From NCBI GenBank assembly GCA_001791645.1, contig MGFA01000006.1, forward strand, positions 1-40,207: a stretch of DNA of 40,207 nucleotides, in the 5' to 3' direction. Positions within the stretch are counted from its first letter, which is position 1, and each line of letters starts with the position of its first letter. Both the position numbers and the translations under genes were made by a program. The notes under the pieces are model-generated. The model ran no database searches. It saw only the letters and a program-made list of their open reading frames with translations, and was not told the DNA's origin. Below, in pieces: positions 1,040 through 25,928 of the stretch. The stretch comes from Candidatus Uhrbacteria bacterium RIFOXYB12_FULL_58_10. Its GTDB lineage: Bacteria > Patescibacteriota > Patescibacteriia > UBA9934 > GWF2-40-263.

Positions 1040-2743
1040 ATGGGAATGACGGGAGGACAATTGCCGGTAGATCTGCCGGAGAACGTGAGAGATTTTCTGT
1101 CTGGCATGGACGGCTTTGCTTTCGCGAGCGCATTCGTCGAGTCGTTCGATATCAATCCCGTGCTCGTTTCCTCCGTCTTTCGGATTCAGAATCAGGTTGC
1201 AAAAGGGGACATCTCATTGCTTGAGCTACCCTCGATGCTTGAGACGGAATTCGCCCTGGAATCCGACGAGGCGATCAAGGCCGCAATTGAGATCGCCGGG
1301 AAGCGACTGTTGCCAGTCGCGGACCTTGTTGGGTTGGACGTTCTCGGTGCCCTCAGGTCTTGGGGCGCGAACCCGGAGGATTTTAAGGACGTGAAGAAGA
1401 TCGAGGCCGAGGCGAAGCCGGTGGCGCCGGAAGAAATGCCGGTGCAGCGAGCGCTGACGGATACAGGGGCCGTGTTCTTGGACCCCGTGCTGCAGCATCG
1501 GCTGGAGCTTATTGTCGTTTCGTTTCGCGATGGGGTGCGGACGCGCGAGCAGGCCGTTGCGGTGCTGATGCGTCCCATGAAAACCGGGGGGTTGGAAATG
1601 AATGAAAAGGCGGCCGGGGAAGTGTTGGATCTGGTTACGGTGGAACCTGGAGAAGTCAGCGCCATTGCGGAGAGCGAAGCAACGAAGCAACCCCAAGAAG
1701 AGATTATCGCGCCTCAGGCTGGCGGGGCGAAGGCCGATACGTTCACAGAGGAAGACGAGGAAGAAATCAAGATGGTCGCCGTTGAAAAAAAGGACGCCAT
1801 CGAGCACCCGCGGCTCATTACGGACACCAAGGCCGCGGCGGAAACGATCGCTTCGAATGCGAAACTTACGTTCGCGACCGGCGAACTGAAGACGCGATTC
1901 GAGCACATCATCGACGCAAGATTGCGCGACGTGCGGGACGGATTCGAAACGCGCGCGAAGCTTGAGGCATCAGTCGACCAGGGCGGCGTTGGGCTTTCGG
2001 GCGCGCAGTTGGTCGCGGTAATGGAGGCCGTGGAAAAGATGGACACGTTGCACCATGAGGCGCTCGCCGAAGAAATGGCGAAGAAAAAGGAGGAGAAAAT
2101 GGCAAAGGGTGCGGAAATGGCAAAGGGTGCGGAAAATTTGGCGCACAAGGAGGAACAGGTGATGGCGAAGCGATATGCGGAGATCACGGGAAAGGCTCCA
2201 ACCGAATTGGTTCGACCAATTCCGTCGCGGACATCATCCATTTTGCCGGCCGATGCGTTGAAGCAACGCGAACAGCAAATTGACACCGCGAAGGTAAGGG
2301 CCGCCATTGACGCGGCCAAGGTTGCGGCCGCGCAGGTCAGGCCGGTGCTCTCCGAGGCATCCATGCCCCCGGCGACAGCCGGACGACCAAGGGTGGAGGA
2401 CATTCGTTTCGAACGAAAGCTCGTTGATCCCATCGAAGAGCTTCGTTTGCTCACCCTGGTTGATTTTCGGAGGCTTTCGAAGGATCCTGAGCAGGCCGGG
2501 CAGAAGATTCAGGGCAAGGTGGAGCTTGTTTCGCAGGAGGGCTATGACCGTCGCATTGCGGCGGTTCGGGCATGGCGGGAATCCCCGCTTAGCCGACAGT
2601 ATGTCGCCATTTCGCGGGAGGCGCTTATTTCCGGCAAGGGGATCTCCCAGATTTTGGACGAAAAGCGTAAGTCTGGAGAATCCGTTCCAACTGACGAAGA
2701 ACTCAAGGTTATCGTAGACCTGAACGGAATGCTTAGATTTTGA
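1040..2743 (+). CDS. Large helical protein of unknown function in the VirB4 operon
   Basis: This 567-residue protein is predicted mostly helical. An ordered N-terminal ~100 residues is followed by an acidic, Glu/Ala/Lys-rich middle (about residues 200-400) that includes a short duplicated 'KGAEMAKGAE' stretch, and a compact C-terminal domain (about 460-560). There is no signal peptide or membrane segment. It starts 3 nt after the upstream stop, so the two are translationally linked, and it ends 14 nt before prgI. I do not recognise the family. Its fixed place before PrgI and VirB4 suggests a cytoplasmic accessory of the secretion-like machine, which is inference. Confidence 0.8.
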   Translation: MGMTGGQLPVDLPENVRDFLSGMDGFAFASAFVESFDINPVLVSSVFRIQNQVAKGDISLLELPSMLETEFALESDEAIKAAIEIAGKRLLPVADLVGLDVLGALRSWGANPEDFKDVKKIEAEAKPVAPEEMPVQRALTDTGAVFLDPVLQHRLELIVVSFRDGVRTREQAVAVLMRPMKTGGLEMNEKAAGEVLDLVTVEPGEVSAIAESEATKQPQEEIIAPQAGGAKADTFTEEDEEEIKMVAVEKKDAIEHPRLITDTKAAAETIASNAKLTFATGELKTRFEHIIDARLRDVRDGFETRAKLEASVDQGGVGLSGAQLVAVMEAVEKMDTLHHEALAEEMAKKKEEKMAKGAEMAKGAENLAHKEEQVMAKRYAEITGKAPTELVRPIPSRTSSILPADALKQREQQIDTAKVRAAIDAAKVAAAQVRPVLSEASMPPATAGRPRVEDIRFERKLVDPIEELRLLTLVDFRRLSKDPEQAGQKIQGKVELVSQEGYDRRIAAVRAWRESPLSRQYVAISREALISGKGISQILDEKRKSGESVPTDEELKVIVDLNGMLRF

Positions 2744-2749
2744 TACAAT
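2744..2749 (+). promoter_or_regulatory. Possible extended -10 before prgI
   Basis: TGATACAAT forms an extended -10 (TGn plus TACAAT) that overlaps the TGA stop of the preceding gene. Transcription from it would begin about at the ATG at 2758, giving a leaderless or nearly leaderless message. The -35 region (TGAACG at 17-nt spacing) is poor, so this is tentative. Confidence 0.3.
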
Positions 2750-2757
2750 GGGTTCGC

Positions 2758-3186
2758 ATGGAACAATTCGTCGTCCCACAGTTCATTGACGCGGAAGACA
2801 AGATTCTCGGCCCGCTTACGGGCCGTCAGTTTGTGATCATGCTTCTCGTGTTCATGACCGAGGCGATCATGTGGCGCGTGCTGCCGTTCGTGTGGTTTCT
2901 CGTCGTTGGCCTCCCGTTTTTTTCCTTCGGGGTGATCCTTTCCTTCGTGCGCGTAAACGGACAGGCATTTCATTTGTTCCTGTTGAACCTCACGCAAAGC
3001 CTTCGGAAGCCGCGCTTGCGCGTTTGGGACAAGGCGCTTACCGAGGCCGAGGTACGCATTCACCTTACCAAGGTGACGTCGCCCCCGCCCCCGCCCCCGC
3101 CGCGAAAGGCTCCTGTTTCGGCAAGTCGGCTTCAGGAACTTTCTCTGGTGGTCAATACCGGCGGCGTGTATAAGCCGGAAGAGTAG
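2758..3186 (+). CDS. PrgI family protein (VirB3-like small membrane protein)
   Basis: This 142-residue protein opens with 'MEQFVVPQFIDAEDKI', typical of PrgI proteins encoded next to VirB4 in Gram-positive and CPR secretion loci. Two hydrophobic helices span about residues 23-45 and 47-68, followed by a cytoplasmic tail. The tail contains a run of seven prolines near residue 110. PrgI resembles VirB3, an inner-membrane partner of the VirB4 ATPase. The ATG at 2758 is preferred to the TTG at 2740 because the family begins here. It ends 3 nt before the next gene. Family assignment is confident; the role of the proline run is unknown. Confidence 0.85.
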   Translation: MEQFVVPQFIDAEDKILGPLTGRQFVIMLLVFMTEAIMWRVLPFVWFLVVGLPFFSFGVILSFVRVNGQAFHLFLLNLTQSLRKPRLRVWDKALTEAEVRIHLTKVTSPPPPPPPRKAPVSASRLQELSLVVNTGGVYKPEE

Positions 3187-3189
3187 GGT

Positions 3190-3873
3190 ATGCCAGAAAA
3201 AAATAAGCTTGCAAAACCGAAACCCGGCCCGGCAACGCAGCGGTTTTTGGATATCGCCGAAATCCGAGATGACATGGTCATCTTGAATGACGGCACGGTT
3301 CGTTCCGTCATGCTCGTTTCGAGCATTAACTTCGCGTTGAAATCCGAGGAAGAACAAGAGGCTATCATCCAGTCGTACATTACGTTTTTGAACGGGCTCG
3401 ACTATCCGATTGAAATTGTGATCCAGTCGCGTCGCATGAACATCGACGCGTATGTCGCCTCGCTTTCCGAACAGGAAAAGAAAACGGAAAACGACCTTCT
3501 TCGCGCCCAGATTTCGGACTATCGGACGTTCGTCGGAGAACTTGTGGAACTTGGGCAAATCATGCAGAAGCGATTTTATATTGTCGTGCCCTATGATCCG
3601 CTGACTAACAAGAAGCGCGGCTTCTGGCAGCGATTGTCCCTTGTGCTTTCTCCCGTGGCCGCGGCCAAACTTAGCGAAAAGCAGCTTTCCGACCGCCGGG
3701 AGCAGATCTCTCGCCGTTCCGATCTCGTCATTGGCAACCTTTCGTCCATGGGATTGCAGTCCGCGCGCCTTGATACGCAGGGACTGATCGAGCTGTATTA
3801 CAATGCCTATAATCCCGACGTATTCGAGGAAGAACGTTTGGGAGAGCTGGGAAAGATAAGAATAGAAGATTAG
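3190..3873 (+). CDS. TraC/VirB4 N-terminal-domain-like protein
   Basis: This 227-residue soluble protein looks like the N-terminal, non-ATPase part of VirB4/TraC proteins: 'DIAEIRDDMVILNDGTVRSVMLV' is a typical opening beta-rich segment, and 'FYIVVPYDP' follows near residue 127. (Segments quoted are broken here: DIAEIRDDMVIL, then NDGTVRSVMLV.) It has no Walker motifs. It precedes the full VirB4 with a 1-nt gap, so the two probably act together. In CPR genomes this two-gene arrangement recurs, which suggests a dedicated adaptor subunit rather than a truncated pseudogene. The assignment rests on motif resemblance and context. Confidence 0.7.
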   Translation: MPEKNKLAKPKPGPATQRFLDIAEIRDDMVILNDGTVRSVMLVSSINFALKSEEEQEAIIQSYITFLNGLDYPIEIVIQSRRMNIDAYVASLSEQEKKTENDLLRAQISDYRTFVGELVELGQIMQKRFYIVVPYDPLTNKKRGFWQRLSLVLSPVAAAKLSEKQLSDRREQISRRSDLVIGNLSSMGLQSARLDTQGLIELYYNAYNPDVFEEERLGELGKIRIED

Positions 3874-3874
3874 T

Positions 3875-5968
3875 GTGGCAATTGAAATAAGACAATTGGG
3901 CAAGGCCGTGCCGGCACCGCCGCCGCAGGTAGAAAAGCCAAAAAAGCCGGAAGAAGCTCGCGTGGCCGCGGAGCGTCTTGCACTTGAGGAAGAACGGATT
4001 TATCGCAAGGGTGTCGTTACGGTGCGGGATGTCATTTCGCCGGCGTCGTTTGAGGTAAATCCGACGTTTCTTCGGCTTTCCGGCGTGTATGCGCGCACCT
4101 TGTTTGTCATCACCTATCCGCGCCACATCGGCCTTGGGTGGTCCTCCCCGATTATCAACCTCAACAAAACGCTTGACGTGGCAATGTACTTTTATCCGCT
4201 CCCGTCGCACCTGATCCTGAAGCAGCTCCAGAAGCGCGTGGGTATCATGAGCGCCGGCATCCTCGCCGATGCCGATAAGGGCGCCCCGCGCGACCCGATC
4301 AAGGAAACCGCGCTGCGTGACATCGAGTCGTTGCGGGACGCGTTGACCCAGGGAATCGAGCATTTTTTCCAGTTCGCGTTTTACGTCACCATCTATTGCA
4401 AGAGCGAGGACGAGCTTGACAAGACGTCGCAAGAAATTGAGGCGATCTTCGGGTCGAAACTCATTTATACGAAGTCCGGGTTCTATCAAACGGAGCAGGG
4501 ATTCAATTCCACGCTTCCGCTCGGGAACGACGAGCTGCAAATTACCTATAACTTGAATACGTCGCCGATCGCGGCGTCGTTTCCATTCATTTCTTCCGAC
4601 CTGACGAGCGACAACGGCATTCTGTACGGCATTAACCGTCATAATAACTCGCTCATTCTTTTCGATCGCTTCTCGTTGCAAAACGCCAACTCGGTGGTGT
4701 TTGCGACCTCTGGCGCCGGAAAGTCGTATGCCATCAAGCTTGAGATCCTTCGCTCGCTCATGATGGGCGTGGACGTGATCGTCATCGACCCGGAAATGGA
4801 ATATAAGCATCTTTCCGACGCGGTCGGCGGCACGTACGTTAACGTGTCGCTCGCATCGCAGGCAAAGGTGAACCCGTTCGACTTGCCGCGCGCCGTGGGC
4901 GAGGGAACCAAGGTTGAGGATATCATTCGTTCCGCGGTCATTACGCTCAAGGGGTTGCTTCGCATCATGATTGGCGCTCCGGTTCTCGCGGGAGGCGCGG
5001 CCGGATTTACGCCGGAAGAGGATTCCGTGCTCGACCGAGCGCTCATTGAGGCGTACGCAAAAAAGGACATCACTCCGGAAACGGTCGATCTTTCCGTTGT
5101 CGAACCGCCGGTACTTACGGACTTTCAGGATGTTCTCGAGGGGATGGAAGGGGCGGAGAATCTCGTTGCCCGACTGCGAAAGTATACGGAAGGAACGTTC
5201 GCGGGCCTCTTGAATCAGCCGACCAACGTGGAGATGGACAACCAACTCGTGATTTTTTCCGTGCGCGACCTTGAGGACGAGCTTCGTCCGGTCGCGATTT
5301 ATACCATCATCAACTACATCTGGAACGTGGTGCGCTCGGTGCGCAAGAAGCGCATCATGGTCATAGACGAGGCCTGGTGGCTCATGCAATATGAGGATTC
5401 CGCGCGATTCATGTTCGCGCTTGTCAAGCGCTGTCGCAAATATTATCTCGGCATTACCACCATTACGCAGGACGTCAACGACTTTTTGCGCTCCCCGTAC
5501 GGTCAGGCGATCGTCAACAACTCGTCATTGCAGCTTCTCATGAAACAGTCGCCTTCCGCGGTGGATCTCATTCAAAAGACGTTTAACCTGACCGACGGCG
5601 AGAAATTCCTATTGCTCGAATCCGGCGTGGGAGAGGGAATTTTCTTCGCGGGACAAAAGCATGCGGCCATTAAGGTCGTGGCATCGTATACCGAGGACCA
5701 GATCGTTACCACGAACCCACAGCAGCTTTTGGACATCGAGCAGGCAAAGAAGGATTTTGAGGTACAGTTATCCAAGGAACGCGGCGAGGATAGTCGCACA
5801 AGGCCCGTTGCCCCCGGCGCAAAGACTTCGGAACCGGAAGCGTCTCCGCTTGAAGAAGAGCCGTCGTTATCCGAGAAGGCAGCAGCGGATGCGGCCGCCG
5901 CGTTGTTGTCGCGGGAAGATTCCGGAAAGGCCGAGGCTGATCGGATTAAGTCGTCGTTGCAAAGCTAA
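3875..5968 (+). CDS. virB4: VirB4/TraC-like secretion ATPase
   Basis: This 697-residue protein is the energy-providing ATPase of the type IV secretion-like system and acts at the cytoplasmic face of the membrane with PrgI. Walker A (SGAGKSY) lies near residues 278-284 and Walker B (RIMVIDEAWWL) near 491-500; the 'QDVNDFL' and 'NNSSLQLLMKQ' segments downstream are typical of VirB4. Residues 1-45 are Pro/Lys/Glu-rich and residues ~640-697 form an acidic disordered tail. The start is GTG, one base after the previous stop. The length is usual for CPR VirB4. No relaxase or VirD4 is in view, so DNA transfer cannot be inferred. Confidence 0.93.
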   Translation: MAIEIRQLGKAVPAPPPQVEKPKKPEEARVAAERLALEEERIYRKGVVTVRDVISPASFEVNPTFLRLSGVYARTLFVITYPRHIGLGWSSPIINLNKTLDVAMYFYPLPSHLILKQLQKRVGIMSAGILADADKGAPRDPIKETALRDIESLRDALTQGIEHFFQFAFYVTIYCKSEDELDKTSQEIEAIFGSKLIYTKSGFYQTEQGFNSTLPLGNDELQITYNLNTSPIAASFPFISSDLTSDNGILYGINRHNNSLILFDRFSLQNANSVVFATSGAGKSYAIKLEILRSLMMGVDVIVIDPEMEYKHLSDAVGGTYVNVSLASQAKVNPFDLPRAVGEGTKVEDIIRSAVITLKGLLRIMIGAPVLAGGAAGFTPEEDSVLDRALIEAYAKKDITPETVDLSVVEPPVLTDFQDVLEGMEGAENLVARLRKYTEGTFAGLLNQPTNVEMDNQLVIFSVRDLEDELRPVAIYTIINYIWNVVRSVRKKRIMVIDEAWWLMQYEDSARFMFALVKRCRKYYLGITTITQDVNDFLRSPYGQAIVNNSSLQLLMKQSPSAVDLIQKTFNLTDGEKFLLLESGVGEGIFFAGQKHAAIKVVASYTEDQIVTTNPQQLLDIEQAKKDFEVQLSKERGEDSRTRPVAPGAKTSEPEASPLEEEPSLSEKAAADAAAALLSREDSGKAEADRIKSSLQS

Positions 5969-5971
5969 CGT

Positions 5972-6547
5972 ATGATTTCTCAGAAGACAAGACGAAATAT
6001 TTTTCTCACGATCCTGATTCTGTTGGTTTTGCTTCTCATGTTCTTGCTTTGGTGGTTTTTGCGCCCGGAACCAGCGGCGCCGATCGTGATCACGCCCACG
6101 CCGATTGTGACAATACCCGCATCCGATACGGGATCGATTTCCGAAACGCGACAACAGGAGGAACAGGTATCCCGCAACCAAACTGCTTCCATTCAATCGG
6201 CGTCCAAGACGTTCGCGGAACGGTATGGCAGTTATTCCAACGAGGCTAATTTTGCCAATTTGCGCGACGTAATTCCTCTCATGAACGCTTCGTTTGCCCG
6301 TGAAACGCTGGCGTTTGTCGACGCCGCGACCGCGCCAGTGGATTATTATGCTGTCACGACGCGCGTAATTTCCGTATCGGTCGATGCCGTGGATGAAGCG
6401 ACCGGAACGGCAACGGTTACCGTCACGACGCAGCGCGAGGAAGCGAAGGGATCCGTCCAAAATGTTTCGGTCAGGTACGCGGACCTGCGGCTCACCTTCG
6501 TTACGGAAAACGGATCATGGAAAGTTTCGTCGGTCAGCTGGCTCTAG
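5972..6547 (+). CDS. Membrane-anchored protein of the VirB4 operon, NTF2/VirB8-like in outline
   Basis: This 191-residue protein has a short basic N-terminus, one strong transmembrane helix (about residues 11-31) and an extracytoplasmic Pro/Thr-rich linker. A domain of ~120 residues follows, with the order helix then beta strands ending in 'WKVSSVSWL'. This plan (N-in anchor plus cone-like alpha/beta domain) resembles VirB8 and other NTF2-fold proteins, but there is no decisive motif. It is 3 nt after virB4 and overlaps comF by 31 nt, so it belongs to the same operon. A VirB8-like scaffold is an inference. Confidence 0.7.
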   Translation: MISQKTRRNIFLTILILLVLLLMFLLWWFLRPEPAAPIVITPTPIVTIPASDTGSISETRQQEEQVSRNQTASIQSASKTFAERYGSYSNEANFANLRDVIPLMNASFARETLAFVDAATAPVDYYAVTTRVISVSVDAVDEATGTATVTVTTQREEAKGSVQNVSVRYADLRLTFVTENGSWKVSSVSWL

Positions 6548-10506: not shown

Positions 10507-10537
10507 ATAACCTTTTTAACTGAGGGTTATTTTTTTG
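10507..10537. terminator. Bidirectional terminator between small gene and recombinase 1
   Basis: ATAACC (10507-10512) pairs with GGTTAT (10525-10530), followed by seven T on the + strand. The stop codon of recombinase 1 (10516-10518 on -) lies in the loop. Confidence 0.65.
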
Positions 10538-11856
10538 TTTTTATACACCAATCTACTCCTTAAATTCCCCAATAACTCACGCTTTTCAGAAATACTCCCT
10601 TGTCGCAATAAATATTTTGCGTACGCCCGAATATTCACCTCAGCTTCATCTGCCTCCTGCTTGCCGTCCGAGCCGAACACCGTTTGTTGAAAGTGACTAA
10701 ATCGTTTGATTTCGTCTTCGAGTTTGGTTTTCATGCCCAACTCGTTGATATTGATCTGATCGAAGATTTTGAGTAATTCGGCAATCAGCTCCTCCTCGCG
10801 GATGTATTGGTTTTTGCAATCGCGATCTCTTGCTCGAGTGCAGCCGTAGTAGATGTAATGAGCAGTGGTGCCATCACGGAGTTTCTTATACTTGTCCTCG
10901 ACCGATATACCGGATTGGCACAGACCGCAGGTAAATAGTTTCGTGAAGGCGAATTCTTTGTTCTCCCGCACGATTTGATCGCGTTTGAGTTGGGTTTGGC
11001 CGAGGTCGAAGAGTTCTTTGGTGACAAGGGGTTTATGTTTGCCGCCGTACCAGTTACCGCTCTCACGTGGACGCTCGAACTTCCCGTAATAGAATGGGTT
11101 GTCGAGCACGCGGTAGATACCGCCGAGCGTTAGGGTTTTGTTACCGCGGGTTTTGAAGTTGAGATCATGTTTGAGCCAGTTGTAGATTTTACGCCCGCTC
11201 CATTTCTCGTAGGCGAGTTTTTCAAACATCTGTTTGATTATTGGCGACCGTACCGGATCGACGATGACTTGGCATTTCTTGTCCATTAACCCCTGATTGA
11301 GATAACCGAGTGGTGCCACTCCTGGCCACAAGCCCATCTCGACGCGCGTTCGTAATCCGCGCTTCACGTTCTCTCCACGATGGTCGTTTTCAAGCTTGGC
11401 GGTTGAGCCAAGAATCATGAGCATGAACTTCTCGTTAGGTGAATTGGTGAATCGCTGACCGTAGGTGCGGATTTCATGGAGTAGCCCTTGGTCCATCAAG
11501 TCGACGATCGCTCCAAGGTCACCTGCATTTCGGCTCAACCTGTCCGGTGCCCACGTGAGGATGCCACCAAACTTGCGCTGACGAATGTCGGCGAGGATTT
11601 CGTTGTACACGGGCCGTTGCCCTGTCGACTTGGCCGAATGGCTTTCGCGTCGAATCTCGGAAACATCAAGCCCTTCGCGCTCAGCGAGCTGAAGCATTTC
11701 CTTAATCTGCGAGTCGATGGAGAGCACTTGTCGTTCCTCGGACTCGCTCGACTTACGAGCGTAGAGGCAGTAGCGGATTTTCTCCTCAATCACAGCTTCT
11801 TTCTGTTCGTGATCTGTGCGTGTCGGCGTTGCTGTAATTGATCTCGTATTTTCCAT
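10516..11856 (-). CDS. Serine site-specific recombinase, copy 1
   Basis: This 446-residue recombinase has the serine catalytic domain first: Y32, R34 and nucleophile S36 in 'YARKSSESEERQ', then 'DRLSRNAGDLGAIVD'. A recombinase DNA-binding domain ('GVAPLGYLNQG...ILDNPFYYGKFERP' type, about 180-290) follows. A zinc ribbon (CGLC, then GCTRARDRDC, about 305-345) and a helical C-terminus complete it. It cuts and rejoins att DNA through a phosphoserine link. At 446 residues it is at the short end for large serine integrases. ATG 11856 is chosen because both copies conserve it; a TTG lies 21 nt upstream. It is very similar to copy 2 and lies ~300 nt from junction C, reading away from it. Confidence 0.93.
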   Translation of the reverse strand: MENTRSITATPTRTDHEQKEAVIEEKIRYCLYARKSSESEERQVLSIDSQIKEMLQLAEREGLDVSEIRRESHSAKSTGQRPVYNEILADIRQRKFGGILTWAPDRLSRNAGDLGAIVDLMDQGLLHEIRTYGQRFTNSPNEKFMLMILGSTAKLENDHRGENVKRGLRTRVEMGLWPGVAPLGYLNQGLMDKKCQVIVDPVRSPIIKQMFEKLAYEKWSGRKIYNWLKHDLNFKTRGNKTLTLGGIYRVLDNPFYYGKFERPRESGNWYGGKHKPLVTKELFDLGQTQLKRDQIVRENKEFAFTKLFTCGLCQSGISVEDKYKKLRDGTTAHYIYYGCTRARDRDCKNQYIREEELIAELLKIFDQININELGMKTKLEDEIKRFSHFQQTVFGSDGKQEADEAEVNIRAYAKYLLRQGSISEKRELLGNLRSRLVYKNKKITLS

Positions 11857-11993
11857 ACAACACAAGGAATGCCGCAACGGTTGTGGGGCGTCCAGGCTGG
11901 TCGGAGTTGGTAACTTTTGACGTCAAAACGCCCCGAGAAAGTGAGACAGTGGCTTTTTCGCCATTTCTACTCAAAAAGACCAACAAAACTGTC

Positions 11994-13440: not shown

Positions 13441-14790
13441 TTATGATTCTACAAGAAGTGAGATTGTTTTATCGCGATAGATAAGTCTACTCCTCAGATT
13501 CCCCAGCAGCTCCCGCTTCTCAGATACGCTCCCTTCGCGCAGAAGATATTTTGCATAAGTCCGAATGTTCACTTCGGCCTCCACAGCTTCCTGCTTGCCG
13601 TCGGATCCCATCACCACTTTTTGAAAGTGGTTGAATCGCTTGATCTCGTCCTCGAGCTTATGGCGCATGCCAAGTTCGTTGATGTTGATCTGGTCGAGAA
13701 TCTTAACGAGTTCTGCGATCAGCTCCTCCTCGCGGATGTATTGGTTTTTGCAGTCCCGATCTCTCGCTCGGGTACAACCGTAGTAAACATAGTGCGCGGT
13801 GGTTCCATCACGGAGTTTTTTGTATTTGTCCTCGGCCGAGATGCCGGATTGGCATAAGCCACACGTGAAGAGTTTCGTGAAGGCGAACTCTTTGTTCTCC
13901 CGCACGATCTGGTCGCGTTTGAGTTGGGTTTGGCCGAGGTCGAAAAGCTCTTTCGTGATAATCGGTTTGTGTTTGCCGTCGTACCAGTTGCCGCTGTCGC
14001 GCGGTCGTTCGAATTTGCCGTAGTAGAACGGATTATCGAGGACGCGATAGACGCCGCCGAGCGTCAGAGTCTTATTCCCACGCGTTTTAAGGTTCAGGTC
14101 GTGTTTCAGCCAGTTATAGATCTTTCGACCGCTCCATTTTTCGTAGGCAAGCTTCTCGAACATCTGTTTAATGATCGGCGCGCGGACAAGATCGACGATA
14201 ACTTGGCATTTCTTATCCATGAGTCCTTGATTCAAGTAGCCGAGCGGTGCCACGCCTGGCCACAAACCCATCTCAACCCGAGTTCGCAATCCACGCTTCA
14301 CATTCTCGCCACGATGATCATTTTCAAGCTTCGCAGTCGAGCCAAGAATCATCAGCATGAACTTTTCGTTCGGCGAATTGGTGAATCGTTGGCCGTACGT
14401 GCGGATTTCGTGGAGAAGTCCCTGATCCATGAGATCGACGATCGCTCCAAGGTCACCTGCATTTCGGCTCAACCTGTCCGGTGCCCACGTGAGGATGCCA
14501 CCAAACTTGCGCTGACGAATGTCGGCGAGGATTTCGTTGTACACGGGCCGTTGCCCGGTCGACTTTGCCGAATGGCTCTCGCGTCGGATTTCCGCCACGT
14601 GGAGACCTTCACGTTCTGCTAGTTGGAGCATCTCCTTGATCTGGGAGTCGATTGAGAGCACTTGGCGTTCCTCAGATTCGCTCGACTTCCGGGCGTAGAG
14701 GCAATAGCGGATTTTCTCCTCAGTCACAGTCTCTTTTTGTTCGTGGTTTGTGCGTGTCGGCGCTGCTGTTATTGATCTCGTGTTTTCCAT
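13441..14790 (-). CDS. Serine site-specific recombinase, copy 2
   Basis: This 449-residue paralog of copy 1 aligns without gaps except at the last few residues. It has the same catalytic 'YARKSSESEERQ' (S36), recombinase domain and zinc ribbon (CGLC...GCTRARDRDC). Most nucleotide differences are at third positions, so the two diverged under selection for protein function, yet 122 nt (14434-14555) match copy 1 exactly (11499-11620). It lies ~300 nt from junction D, as copy 1 does from junction C. Start ATG 14790 is chosen as for copy 1. Both copies look intact and probably active. Confidence 0.93.
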   Translation of the reverse strand: MENTRSITAAPTRTNHEQKETVTEEKIRYCLYARKSSESEERQVLSIDSQIKEMLQLAEREGLHVAEIRRESHSAKSTGQRPVYNEILADIRQRKFGGILTWAPDRLSRNAGDLGAIVDLMDQGLLHEIRTYGQRFTNSPNEKFMLMILGSTAKLENDHRGENVKRGLRTRVEMGLWPGVAPLGYLNQGLMDKKCQVIVDLVRAPIIKQMFEKLAYEKWSGRKIYNWLKHDLNLKTRGNKTLTLGGVYRVLDNPFYYGKFERPRDSGNWYDGKHKPIITKELFDLGQTQLKRDQIVRENKEFAFTKLFTCGLCQSGISAEDKYKKLRDGTTAHYVYYGCTRARDRDCKNQYIREEELIAELVKILDQININELGMRHKLEDEIKRFNHFQKVVMGSDGKQEAVEAEVNIRTYAKYLLREGSVSEKRELLGNLRSRLIYRDKTISLLVES

Positions 14791-14926
14791 ACAACACAAG
14801 GAATGCCGCAACGGTTGTGGGGCGTCCAGGCTGGTTGGAGTTGGTAACTTTTATCGTCGAAACGCTCCGAAAAAGTGAGGCAGTGACTTTTTGTCACCTT
14901 TGCATGAGAAGTCCAACAAAACCGTC

Positions 14927-21484: not shown

Positions 21485-21545
21485 AAAATTAAAAGATACA
21501 AGAAACAAAAACGAGAATTTGTATCTTGTATCTTTTAATTTTCTA
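21482..21545. terminator. 22-bp perfect palindromic terminator shared by recG and radA
   Basis: Two perfect complementary 22-nt arms (21482-21503 and 21524-21545) flank a 20-nt loop. Each arm begins, on its own coding strand, with the TAG stop codon of the converging gene. The stem is AT-rich (AGAAAATTAAAAGATACAAG) and so gives T-rich 3' sides on both strands. Confidence 0.8.
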
Positions 21546-22814
21546 TAACTCTCGCACGGTCTTGATCGACTTCGGGGTCAGAACGGTATCGATGCCCATG
21601 CGTTTTGCCTCGGATGTGCGGCGTTCGACGTTTGGGACGGAGCGCGTTTCGCCGCCGAGCCCAACTTCGCCCACGTAGACCGCGGGCTTCTCGGCCGCGA
21701 CGTTTCCCGCCGCGCTCACGATGGCCGCGCACACGGCCAGGTCCGCGGCCGGCTCGCGCAACTCGAGTCCGCCGATCACGTTCACGTACACGTCTGCCTC
21801 GCCAAGTTTGAGCCCCGCGTGCTTCGACAGAATCGCGCAGAGCATCTGGAGCCGGTTCTGGTCGAATCCGCTCGCGCGACGCACGGGCGTCCCGTAGCTC
21901 GATTTTTCCACGAGCGCCTGCACTTCCACGAGGAACACGCGGGAACCTTCCATGGTCGCGGCGATCACGGAGCCGGGGACATTCCGACGTTCTTCCAAAA
22001 ATCGCCCGGACGGATTTTCCACGGTCGCGAGGCCCGTGGCGGTCATCTCGAACACGCCGACCTCGTCGGTCGCCCCGAAGCGATTTTTTGTCGCGCGCAA
22101 AATGCGGTAGGCATGCACGGGGTCGCCCTCGAGCGACACCACCACGTCCACCAGGTGCTCGAGCGTCTTTGGCCCGGCAATGGCGCCGTCCTTGGTAACC
22201 TGGCCGATGAGCAGCACGGGGATGTTGGTGCGCTTGGCAAGGTCGAGAAGCAGGGAGGTGGCGTAGCGCACCATGGCCGGCGTTCCGGCGCCCGAGTCGA
22301 GCTCCGAGGAAACGAGCGTTTGCACGGAGTCCACGATCGCGAGCGAGGGGCGTTCATTCTCAATGGTGGCCACGATCGTTTCGATGGGCAGCGCCTCAAG
22401 GAAGTTGACCGCATCGGGCCTCAGGCCGAGACGCGCAAACCGGCCCGCGAGCTGCGGCGCGGATTCCTCGCCCGATACGTAGAGGGAAGGGTGGCTTCCC
22501 GCGACCTGCGCCACGAGCGTCGATTTGCCGATGCCCGGTTCGCCGGACAACAAAACAAGCGCCCCACGCATCATGCCTCCGCCGAGTACGCGGTCTATTT
22601 CCGGGATTCCCGTTTCGATCCGTCCCGGGTCTGCCGCGCCGGCGGCCTCCGAGATCGGCTTCGAAACCGCGGCCTTTGTCTTCACGCCCGTCTCCTTGCC
22701 TCTCGGTCTCTCAGCCTGGCCGCCTTCTTCCCCGACCGTTCCCCATTTTCCGCATTCCGTGCACCTCCCGCTCCACTTCGGAAACTGCGCGTCACAATTT
22801 GAGCAGGAGAACAT
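21543..22814 (-). CDS. radA: DNA repair protein RadA (Sms)
   Basis: This 423-residue protein has an N-terminal zinc finger (CSNC...CTEC, residues 4-21), a RecA-like ATPase with Walker A SGEPGIGKST near residue 90, the RadA signature KNRFG near 243, and a Lon-like C-terminal domain. RadA is a branch-migration helicase in recombination and natural transformation. It is the last gene of the eight-gene - strand operon, 2 nt after the pilin-M15 gene. Convergence with recG places two branch-migration enzymes side by side. Confidence 0.97.
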   Translation of the reverse strand: MFSCSNCDAQFPKWSGRCTECGKWGTVGEEGGQAERPRGKETGVKTKAAVSKPISEAAGAADPGRIETGIPEIDRVLGGGMMRGALVLLSGEPGIGKSTLVAQVAGSHPSLYVSGEESAPQLAGRFARLGLRPDAVNFLEALPIETIVATIENERPSLAIVDSVQTLVSSELDSGAGTPAMVRYATSLLLDLAKRTNIPVLLIGQVTKDGAIAGPKTLEHLVDVVVSLEGDPVHAYRILRATKNRFGATDEVGVFEMTATGLATVENPSGRFLEERRNVPGSVIAATMEGSRVFLVEVQALVEKSSYGTPVRRASGFDQNRLQMLCAILSKHAGLKLGEADVYVNVIGGLELREPAADLAVCAAIVSAAGNVAAEKPAVYVGEVGLGGETRSVPNVERRTSEAKRMGIDTVLTPKSIKTVREL

Positions 22815-22816
22815 AG

Positions 22817-24055
22817 TTAGTTGCAGGTCGATGACATCTTTGGTTTTTCAAAATGCCACGGCTCGCTTTTTAGGTTGCAGAATCCGGCGGTTTTCATGGC
22901 GGAAATGACTGCAGCCTGGCAGGTATTCGCGCGGCACGCGGCAGGATCCGAGAGACAGGCGTCCTGGCTGATACATTGCGACCCGCCCGTTGTTCCCCAG
23001 ATGTCGAGGGCGCGTCCGGTCGTGTGCGGGCAGTTGGCGGCGTTGTTGTCTTTCAGAATACAGGTCGTCGGTTTGTCTGGCTTTCGGTTGCACGTGCTGG
23101 AACCGGGCGGGTTCTGGCAGTTCCTATAGATCAGTTCGCGTTGTTTTTCCACGCTTCGGAAACTCGAGGCAATGGACATACCGTATCCCCATGACGCGAG
23201 CGTTTGTGCCGCGGACTCGATGTCCGCCGTGAGCTCGCTCGGGATTTTCGTTTTTCCCGCTCCACTGATGTTCGTTCCGTCAGGCGTCGAGAAATTCGTC
23301 GCGACCGATCCGTTCGTGATGAAGTCGTCTTCGTATTCTTCCGGGGAAGGGGGAATCACGGTAATTTCCAGATTTTTAAAAACGGTCAGTTCCGGATTGA
23401 CCAGGTAGAGAATCACATATACGAACAGCAAGAGGACGAATCCGGTGATCGCGTTCACAATACGGTTCTTTGCCTTTCCGATTTCCCCGGAAGATGCCCC
23501 GATGACGTACTGCAGTCCGCCGACCATTACCATGACGATGGCAATTGAGATCGCGAATCCGATGAGAAACTTGTACACGCCGGAGATGTACGCCCCAAGA
23601 AAGTTCGATTCGAGCTTTCCGTCGCGATACAAGGTCTTCACGAAGTCGACGCCCGGAATGTCGACGCTCAGCTGCGGGGTCGCGTACGAGGGGGTGTTCG
23701 CCCCGGCCTCGAGGGCTGCTGCCACGGCCTGGTCGGTTTCCGCGAGGCGAGCGGTCGCGTTCGACGCGCTGCATTTGGTCGCGACGCCCTTTCCTTCGCA
23801 CGTATCCTTTCCATCGTGATAGGAGGAGCTGGCATACGCATCTCCATAGGCCAGTTTGCAGTCGGTCGTACAACTGGCCTCGCTATAGCCGGACGAAGTC
23901 GGATAAAATACGTCGCAGTAGCTGCCGTTAAAGTAACAGGCACAAACCGGCGCCTCGTCGTAAAGGTACACGGAACTGTCGCAGGAATCCGCTGCAAAAA
24001 CAATCGAGGGAGCGAGCAGGCAGGCGGAAATGAGCGTGAGAATCCAACGTTTCAT
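22817..24055 (-). CDS. Pilin/VirB2-like membrane protein fused to an M15 D,D-peptidase domain
   Basis: This 412-residue protein has a signal peptide (about 1-22), a cysteine-rich extracytoplasmic segment (about 23-90, nine or more Cys), two transmembrane helices in TrbC/VirB2-like spacing (about 158-183 and 200-220) and a C-terminal M15 peptidase. The peptidase shows 'SSFRSVEKQRE', the zinc motif HTTGRALD and the second zinc/catalytic motif EPWHFE. M15 enzymes (VanY/DacB type) cut D-Ala-D-Ala peptide stems. The fusion would anchor a wall-cutting enzyme to a secretion or pilus subunit. It lies 1 nt from a DsbA-like gene, which fits its many cysteines. Active-site residues are all present. Confidence 0.85.
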   Translation of the reverse strand: MKRWILTLISACLLAPSIVFAADSCDSSVYLYDEAPVCACYFNGSYCDVFYPTSSGYSEASCTTDCKLAYGDAYASSSYHDGKDTCEGKGVATKCSASNATARLAETDQAVAAALEAGANTPSYATPQLSVDIPGVDFVKTLYRDGKLESNFLGAYISGVYKFLIGFAISIAIVMVMVGGLQYVIGASSGEIGKAKNRIVNAITGFVLLLFVYVILYLVNPELTVFKNLEITVIPPSPEEYEDDFITNGSVATNFSTPDGTNISGAGKTKIPSELTADIESAAQTLASWGYGMSIASSFRSVEKQRELIYRNCQNPPGSSTCNRKPDKPTTCILKDNNAANCPHTTGRALDIWGTTGGSQCISQDACLSDPAACRANTCQAAVISAMKTAGFCNLKSEPWHFEKPKMSSTCN

Positions 24056-24056
24056 A

Positions 24057-24707
24057 TCATTTGACCAGTTCCTGTCGAATCAGCCCAGTGAGTTCCTCGA
24101 CCGTGAGCTCGCCGGCATAGGACTCGGAGCCGATGAAAATGGTCGGCGTGGCAAGGATGTTGAGCGCCCGGCCCTCCTCGAAATCCTTGCGGACAATGGC
24201 GAGCGTGTCGTTGGATTCCGCGCAGCGCGAAAAAGCCTGGACATCGAGGTCGACGTCCGAAGCGATCGCGACGATTTCGTCCTCGGTAAGATAGGCTTGT
24301 CTCTCGAACAGCGCGTCGTGGAACTCCCAGAACTTGCCCTGCCTGTCCGCGCAATGCGCCGCAATGGCCGCCTTGGTCGCAAGCGGGTGCGCGTCTTCGT
24401 TTGGCATGTCCTTCCAGACGATCCGAAGGCCGGTCGGGAAGCTTCGCATGACGGTTCGAAGGTTGACGGCCAGGGTTTTGCACGGGTCGCACTGGAAGTC
24501 GCCGAACGTCACGATCTCGACGGCCGCGTCCGAGGGCCCCATCGACGGGTTCACGAACGTCACGGTAGGCACGTCGATGCTCGTTGGCGTTTCGTCCGTC
24601 ATGGCGTCCTGTGGCGGACGAATCGGCTGCAAACGCAGAAAAAAGAAAACCAGGACGATCGCGCTGACCGTTCCGATGGCAAGGAATGTGGTCCAGGGTC
24701 GCGGCAT
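24057..24707 (-). CDS. Membrane-anchored DsbA-like thiol oxidoreductase
   Basis: This 216-residue protein has an N-terminal transmembrane anchor (about residues 7-24) and a DsbA-type thioredoxin fold: 'VTFGDFQCDPCKTL' with active-site C73-D-P-C76, a helical insertion, and the cis-proline loop 'ATPTIFIG' near residue 190. It belongs to the BdbD/DsbA group, which introduces disulfide bonds in exported proteins. No DsbB partner is in view. It is 1 nt upstream of the cysteine-rich pilin-M15 gene, its most likely client. Confidence 0.92.
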   Translation of the reverse strand: MPRPWTTFLAIGTVSAIVLVFFFLRLQPIRPPQDAMTDETPTSIDVPTVTFVNPSMGPSDAAVEIVTFGDFQCDPCKTLAVNLRTVMRSFPTGLRIVWKDMPNEDAHPLATKAAIAAHCADRQGKFWEFHDALFERQAYLTEDEIVAIASDVDLDVQAFSRCAESNDTLAIVRKDFEEGRALNILATPTIFIGSESYAGELTVEELTGLIRQELVK

Positions 24708-24710
24708 AGG

Positions 24711-25928
24711 TTATTTTAATCGCATCATCTGGAGAGTGCCGTCGTTTCCGCTGACAAAGTACAGGGTCGCGCCGTCGTCGCCGATCTGAAGGCTCGACAT
24801 TGAGACGTCTTCCTCCGGAACGGCGACGAGCGTTACCTTGCTGAGGAGAATGTCGACCTTGTAGACCGAGTCAGGGTAGTTCGCAAAAAGGGCACGTTGA
24901 AGGCCCGCGTTATCCGGAAGATTTCTCGGAACCGCGCAATAGGCCACGCTCGCGCTTGTGAACGTGCATTTGTCGGCCCAGGTGTTCAATCCCAATGAAT
25001 GTCGGTTTTCACCCATGGTCGCGGGCGTCGCGTCCACGGCCCAGAGGAGCGGCTTGTTGCTGGAATAGTCGCCGGCCACGGAGTAGAGCAGCCGTTTGCC
25101 GTCCGGCGCCCAGTTGGGGAGGAACCCGAGGCCTTCCACGGTGAGGCCGCGATAGTTTTCGCCATTGAGTCCGATGGGAAGAATCATCTTCCGGTCCAGG
25201 CCTCCGGAAAGCGAGGAAGCGGTGTCGGAGAAGGCGATGATCTGGTCGTTTGGCGACCAGGACACAGTGACTTTGTCGCCGTTTTCGCCGAGCGCCTGGA
25301 ACGCGTCCACGTTGCTTCCGTCGGCGTTGGCCGTGACAAGCCACCGGTTGTTCGGATCCACGGCATTTGACTTTGCCTCAAGCTCGTCCGACACCGGGGA
25401 GAAAAAGAAATCTTCCCAATGCGAAGGAAGCGTGACCTGACGTTCGAGGTTGAAGTCGTAGACGATGTTGGTTCCGTCCGGGAACTCAATGACGGCCTTG
25501 TTCGCATCCTTGTTCCATTCCACGTTTTCCGCGCCCGGGAACGACTCGCTTGAGAGAAGAACGATGTTTCCGTTCGCGTCCACCGTATAAAATTTGCCGT
25601 CGTTCGGATTATAGAAATTTACCGAGGATCCGTTTCCGGAAAGCTCGACGTTCGCGACGTCGCTTTGCGTGATCGCCGTCGTGACCGTGCGTCCCCCCGC
25701 GGCAATGGCGGACGCAGGCGGAAGCTCGCCGGTCGTTGTTTCCGTTGCCGGGCGTTCGCCCGCGATCCCCGATGAGGGGAGTCCGGTTTCCGATCCTTCT
25801 TCTCCGGGGAGGACCGTCGGTTCTGGCGAGGGCGGTTTGAAGAAGGCGTAATAAAGGCCGGCGGCGATACCGAACACCGAGGCAATGAAGCCGACGATGA
25901 TCAGGATGCGTTTTAAGCGTTCGGACAT
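24711..25928 (-). CDS. Membrane-anchored beta-propeller protein
   Basis: This 405-residue protein has a transmembrane anchor (about residues 8-28), a Pro/Gly/Ser/Thr linker (30-75) and repeated beta-strand blades of TolB/WD40-like type ('SWSPNDQIIAFSDT', 'LPNWAPDGKRLLYSV', 'DDGATLYFVSGNDG'). Such propellers bind proteins or sugars outside the membrane. The cysteines near residues 337-347 could form a disulfide. It is 3 nt from the DsbA-like gene and 15 nt from the upstream membrane protein. The specific role is unknown. Confidence 0.8.
   Translation of the reverse strand: MSERLKRILIIVGFIASVFGIAAGLYYAFFKPPSPEPTVLPGEEGSETGLPSSGIAGERPATETTTGELPPASAIAAGGRTVTTAITQSDVANVELSGNGSSVNFYNPNDGKFYTVDANGNIVLLSSESFPGAENVEWNKDANKAVIEFPDGTNIVYDFNLERQVTLPSHWEDFFFSPVSDELEAKSNAVDPNNRWLVTANADGSNVDAFQALGENGDKVTVSWSPNDQIIAFSDTASSLSGGLDRKMILPIGLNGENYRGLTVEGLGFLPNWAPDGKRLLYSVAGDYSSNKPLLWAVDATPATMGENRHSLGLNTWADKCTFTSASVAYCAVPRNLPDNAGLQRALFANYPDSVYKVDILLSKVTLVAVPEEDVSMSSLQIGDDGATLYFVSGNDGTLQMMRLK

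Follow-up and report, generated by a model that had tools for sequence, protein, structure and literature searches.

In Gram-positive bacteria, the catalytic domains of VirB1 homologues vary and may be of the CHAP, SLT, MUR, or LytM type (PMC12857230). For the Patescibacteria, the accessible text of a 2025 survey of type IV secretion systems (T4SS) describes VirB2 arrays and reports that most genomes with VirB2-like pilins are without VirB1; its authors inferred that pilus biogenesis seems independent of VirB1, and pilin-enzyme fusions are not mentioned in that text (PMC12102498). In Saccharibacteria, a T4SS cluster that includes pilins is essential (PMC10633639), and so, according to the same survey, are peptidase and lysozyme homologues downstream of virB4 (PMC12102498).

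We analysed in silico a stretch of 40,207 nucleotides (hereafter the window) from a genome of 1.12 Mb, whose named relatives are mostly Candidatus Uhrbacteria metagenome-assembled genomes (MAGs). We take Uhrbacteria to belong to the class ABY1 of the Patescibacteria/CPR, bacteria that are tiny and probably host-dependent. ORF calling and translation revealed a single uninterrupted frame of 412 amino acids on the minus strand. Its product begins with a signal peptide and a Cys-rich segment, continues with a pair of hydrophobic helices on either side of a basic loop, and ends in an M15 peptidase domain. The gene and its parts are:

22817..24055, minus strand: whole fusion gene, 412 aa, the M15-peptidase member of the conserved slot described below (ORF and translation; same-order homologues in ten aligned genomes)
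23993..24055, minus strand: signal peptide, residues 1-21, predicted cleavage between VFA and AD (hydropathy and motif)
23771..23983, minus strand: Cys-rich N-terminal segment, residues 25-95, with 8 Cys, predicted to lie outside (sequence)
23399..23602, minus strand: two-helix pilin-type anchor, residues 152-219, with the basic loop KAKNR (PF18895; AF2 helices; homology to the genome's own short pilins)
22820..23290, minus strand: M15 metallopeptidase domain, residues 256-412 (PF02557; fold search; alignments)
23003..23032, minus strand: zinc-ligand motif CPHTTGRALD, residues 342-351 (H344, D351), invariant, role taken from the known M15 family
22847..22864, minus strand: catalytic motif EPWHFE, residues 398-403 (E398, H401), invariant, role taken from the known M15 family

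The hydrophobic stretch of the signal peptide spans residues 3-25, and the protein would be exported by Sec. AF2 confidence was low in the Cys-rich segment, below 50 for most positions. The whole protein contains 19 Cys.

An initial annotation of this DNA had placed the signal peptide, Cys-rich segment, two-helix anchor, and M15 peptidase in one 412-residue chain, and Pfam, AF2, hydropathy, and alignment all bear this out. It had pointed to CPR genomes as the place to look for the same domain order, which was found there: the pilin plus M15 order was aligned from ten genomes, and the fusion also occurs in MAGs named Uhrbacteria, Magasanikbacteria, and Moranbacteria. The recurring order also disposes of the two objections that the annotation had raised against itself, an artificial join and homologues that are always separate. 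For a frameshift or assembly join of a pilin gene and a peptidase gene we found no supporting point, and its probability is negligible: the order is identical in ten aligned independent genomes, and the best matches are all open frames except one, in which two tandem copies are separated by one internal stop. In 43 of 43 family genomes the fusion protein had a match or several, in some of them only an anchor paralogue or pilin. Five family genomes were without a listed full fusion match (G011, G021, G023, G028, and G033); an assembly gap is likely in these, because the TolB-like neighbour is missing from three of the assemblies and, in the other two, is itself a partial match or lies near a contig end. 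Moranbacteria UBA1362 (L088) and Patescibacteria RA.bin9 (L090) carry a pilin plus M15 fusion between a giant protein and a TolB-like gene. The gene directly before the fusion in RA.bin9 encodes a short pilin that has most of the anchor in common with it, which suggests birth by duplication.

The C-terminal domain matched VanY (PF02557; residues 273-402, E 2.6e-4, 21 bits against a cut-off of 25) and Peptidase_M15 (E 0.011) in Pfam. In the AF2 model this domain is confident (pLDDT about 93) and the N-terminal half of the protein is of low confidence. The five best PDB matches of the model are all M15 enzymes (Ply500, VanX, LdcB), with VanY and LysB4 next. By sequence, the single M15 domain found no match in the PDB, and an M15 profile found weak LysB4/Ply500 matches only. 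The H(x6)D and ExxH motifs typical of M15 enzymes are present on an M15 fold, and an alignment of 15 homologues shows no variation at H344, D351, E398, H401, or R300. The initial annotation had spoken of a pilin-like protein fused to a peptidoglycan D,D-peptidase. The pilin-type anchor and the M15 fusion stand; the "D,D-" is unsupported, as the fold resembles L-Ala-D-Glu endopeptidase, D,D-dipeptidase, and L,D-carboxypeptidase to the same degree. All of the first ten fusions aligned share the same ten Cys in their M15 domain, and we predict from this conservation that they form extra disulfides. The M15-like domain could instead be catalytically dead and serve as a peptidoglycan-binding adhesin, a role proposed for some inactive VirB1 homologues elsewhere (PMC12857230). 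Related proteins at the same locus retain the catalytic motifs in most cases, and some M15B-type members depart from the exact motif, as a dead enzyme might; the zinc ligands and the catalytic Glu are nevertheless invariant in the 15 close homologues, and we regard this explanation as very improbable.

The anchor matched T4SS_pilin (PF18895; residues 157-218, E 2.8e-5) just below the gathering score when the single protein was searched, and just above it in the genome-wide scan (28.7 vs. 26.6 bits). Many slot fusions of relatives pass the PF18895 cut-off, with E-values down to 1e-10; the PF18895 and VanY matches are individually borderline and firm as a family. A profile built from 22 fusion anchors matched each of the five short T4SS pilins that the source genome encodes (contig C22; E 3e-6 to 4e-13). 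In hhalign, anchor and own pilins scored 96%, against less than 1% for three other membrane-protein control families of the same region, and a chance likeness between two-helix proteins was rejected on this comparison. The AF2 model places the helix hairpin at residues 152-189 and 193-219. By the positive-inside rule, the basic loop predicts an anchor with both ends outside the cell.

Several other proteins carry related hairpins. The five tandem pilin-like genes of the same genome lie near a contig end (L042:529-2909), with VirB4 on another contig. Contig C14 encodes a second anchor paralogue (L041:9095-10534; about 480-490 aa) with a very Cys-rich C-terminus in which no enzyme was matched; it adjoins a DsbA-like gene and has counterparts in relatives (L071, L072, L074, L075, L137, and L138). 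On contig C1, a pilin-type hairpin near the N-terminus occurs both in a giant frame (L043:1-9829; about 3,300 aa) and in the 633-aa protein next to it (L043:9830-11731), and relatives have frames comparable to the giant, of 2,400-3,900 aa. Outside ABY1, one CPR genome (G062; L139:5284-13397) encodes three tandem proteins of 770-1,010 aa, each with a pilin-type hairpin at the N-terminus followed by a long C-terminal region.

The fusion gene occupies a fixed position. The order is RecG, then on the opposite strand RadA, the fusion gene or genes, DsbA, a TolB-like gene, ClpC, HtpX, and LemA, and the slot RadA-[one or two fusion genes]-DsbA-TolB-like-ClpC is kept in nearly all inspected relatives, both in the family and across class ABY1. 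Its conserved neighbours are:

21543..22814, minus strand: RadA/Sms, the other border of the slot
24057..24707, minus strand: DsbA/Thioredoxin_4 oxidoreductase, neighbour in nearly every inspected relative
24711..25928, minus strand: TolB-like propeller protein with an N-terminal membrane helix (PD40)

The DsbA-like enzyme that had been noticed next to the fusion gene was confirmed by Pfam (E 1.3e-22), and its gene lies 1 bp upstream. This DsbA would help disulfide bonding outside the cell; VKOR, encoded elsewhere in the source genome, is a possible electron acceptor.

The M15 domain is one of at least seven interchangeable enzyme types on the same anchor, a point that the initial annotation had missed. 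Across ABY1, Pfam identified slot enzymes of the types VanY-like M15 (M15B), M15_4, M23, C39_2, Amidase_2, SLT, NlpC/P60, and GH18. Clustering of the C-termini plus assignment by hand gave 19 M15B, 14 M23, 7 C39-like, 6 CHAP-like, 6 Amidase_2, 5 SLT, 4 NlpC, 4 M15_4, and 1 GH18. Pfam returned no enzyme match for the CHAP-like cluster or for the C-termini of L063 and L125_8392, for which a hydrolase role is putative. Five genomes of the window's own genus hold four different sets (M15B; M23; M23; M15B and M15_4; SLT and M23). A tree built only from the anchors of 68 slot proteins requires 35 or more changes of enzyme type; with 111 columns behind the tree and weak support at many forks, the figure serves as a guide. 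The well-supported sister pairs with unlike enzymes (L044, L050, L125) are tandem copies inside one genome, and anchor gene conversion between such copies could imitate part of the pattern. Anchor and locus are fixed, and the catalytic domain is exchanged between lineages. One slot protein (L129:6582-8351) has two enzyme domains, SLT and GDSL-like (PF13472). A phage origin of the M15 domain was considered and rejected, with no tblastn match in a phage collection and no PHROG match for the domain of the window; Amidase_2 and NlpC slot members match phage lysins.

The exchange of enzymes suggests that the target wall varies, leaning towards the wall of a host. One explanation is accordingly a host-directed effector or weapon, in which the enzyme breaches the host wall, either after release or from a pilus-like structure that displays it at the surface, and is swapped as hosts change. 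The exchange of catalytic families on one anchor is as this explanation expects, and the heavy disulfide content fits a life outside the cell. Cultivated Patescibacteria are episymbionts (PMC12206443), and Vampirococcus is thought to turn secreted peptidoglycan hydrolases on the walls of its prey (PMC8080830). Gram-positive VirB1 homologues, however, vary their catalytic domains and yet serve T4SS assembly (PMC12857230), and the explanation overlaps with that of a T4SS-tethered hydrolase. We consider such an effector or weapon possible but doubtful.

A T4SS gene cluster is present in the same window, on the plus strand:

2740..3186, plus strand: PrgI (VirB3-like) T4SS protein (PF12666, E 2.3e-8)
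3190..3873, plus strand: 227-aa VirB4-associated protein, probably a separate VirB4 N-terminal part, placed between PrgI and VirB4 as in other CPR operons
3875..5968, plus strand: VirB4-like ATPase (PF19044, E 2.4e-28)
5972..6547, plus strand: membrane-anchored SnoaL/NTF2-like protein, a candidate for a VirB8-like role (PF13577, E 5.4e-4)

A ComF-like phosphoribosyltransferase also lies behind VirB4. The genes comF, recG, and radA stand between VirB4 and the fusion, and the survey lists these same three as common neighbours of ABY1 T4SS genes (PMC12102498). VirB4 was found in 37 of 43 family genomes. Wherever VirB4 and the fusion share a contig in the family (17 of 17 genomes), they are 5.9-18.9 kb apart, values that short contigs bias downwards and that partly reflect common descent; the gap in the window is 17 kb. 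It is 9.9-14.5 kb in three genomes from two other ABY1 families (G080, G127, and G114) and at least 69 kb in three others of the class (G203, G098, and G170). Between recG and the VirB4 cluster, two very similar serine recombinase genes (10516-11877 and 13441-14811) surround a short cargo region; this is probably a mobile insertion, which would have lengthened the distance in the source genome.

The fusion could instead be a general membrane-anchored hydrolase for growth of the cell's own wall or for division, with a borrowed pilin-type hairpin and no connection to a T4SS. The fusion gene does lie outside the VirB4 operon, on the opposite strand and in an operon of its own with RadA, DsbA, ClpC, and HtpX; VirB4 was not found in two fusion-bearing genomes, G036 (98% complete, 4 contigs) and G225 (100%); similar hairpins occur in other proteins of the same genome, including the frame of more than 3,000 aa; and a housekeeping role would leave an identical sequence. 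Against this, VirB4 is close by in most ABY1 genomes that have both genes on one contig, and sister species differ in enzyme type, which is unexpected if the own wall is fixed. In another CPR class, moreover, pilin fusions stand inside VirB4 operons with the same TolB-like partner. Four genomes of that class (G174, G205, G333, and G281) have the order PrgI-VirB4N-VirB4-...-pilin with C-terminal extension-TolB-like, and their TolB-like protein is homologous to the ABY1 neighbour (hhalign 99.3%). The extension is weakly SLT-like in G174 (E 0.009) and NlpC/P60 in G205 (E 9e-8); those of G333 and G281 had no enzyme match in Pfam. These operons are the strongest independent support for a T4SS link, and a wall hydrolase independent of the T4SS appears unlikely to us. 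Together with PrgI and VirB4 in the window and the synteny in relatives, they strengthen the secretion-system reading of the initial annotation.

We favour, with somewhat better than even confidence, a cell-wall hydrolase of class ABY1 that is tethered to the membrane, is associated with the T4SS, and does the work of a VirB1 on an anchor of the VirB2 type. The hairpin would hold the protein in the membrane with both ends facing out, and the C-terminal M15 domain would cut peptidoglycan stem peptides beside the secretion channel, so that the wall opens where the machine stands. A search of the source genome for an SLT-type VirB1 was negative, and the fusion may fill that role. More tentatively, and with rather less than even confidence, we propose a modular wall-breaching device, in which a pilin-type chassis at a T4SS-linked locus has its enzyme swapped among at least seven peptidoglycan-hydrolase families to suit the wall of the host at hand. 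The chemistry of the host wall could then be read from the enzyme type in the genome, and the VirB1 "missing" from the Patescibacteria T4SS would be supplied: a hydrolase is present, but it is fused to a pilin-type protein and usually belongs to families outside VirB1 profiles. If the T4SS link is true, it offers an answer to how ABY1 cells pass the wall and names an ABY1-wide locus for it, and the variable enzyme could give a clue to the walls of the hosts on which uncultured episymbionts live.

Our literature searches, which mostly covered papers outside subscription, found no description of the exact architecture, the enzyme exchange, or the fixed ABY1 slot. Pfam does hold a lysozyme-like domain, SLT_3 (PF18896), which we found fused to T4SS_pilin in one CPR protein (L121); the consecutive numbers PF18895 and PF18896 suggest that curators had met this pair earlier. 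SLT_3 covers a single enzyme type and does not describe an ABY1 slot with type exchange. With VirB2-like pilins (PF18895, TrbC) and the Patescibacteria pilin arrays, the fusions share a homologous two-helix hairpin and a signal peptide. Such pilins are mostly 110-250 aa without an enzyme; the fusions add the Cys-rich segment and a catalytic domain of 150-300 aa. The protein of the window matches the pilin hairpin, but a pilin has little beyond it, and because of its size (412 aa) and added enzyme we do not class it as a simple pilin. From the M15 peptidases LdcB, VanY, VanX, and Ply500/LysB4, which have the same fold and the same zinc and catalytic motifs, it differs in sequence (identity at most 22%), in its ten conserved Cys, and in its predicted tether to the membrane. 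The nearest functional likeness is to the Gram-positive VirB1-type hydrolases PrgK, TraG of pIP501, and Orf14 of Tn916; these are anchored in the membrane, turn a peptidoglycan-cutting domain outwards, and belong with a T4SS of the VirB4/PrgI type, all of which is predicted for the fusion. Like a VirB1, the protein joins a peptidoglycan hydrolase domain (M15 fold and motifs) to a signal peptide and a hairpin anchor. We do not class it as VirB1, because the catalytic family differs (M15 in the window and SLT or M23 in sister genes, against SLT, CHAP, MUR, or LytM) and virB4 lies 17 kb off, near in most relatives and far or not found in some. In contrast to PrgK, TraG, and Orf14, the ABY1 fusions are anchored by a two-helix VirB2-type pilin hairpin, their enzymes include M15, Amidase_2, GH18, and C39-like types, and their gene stands in a DsbA-TolB-like operon of its own.
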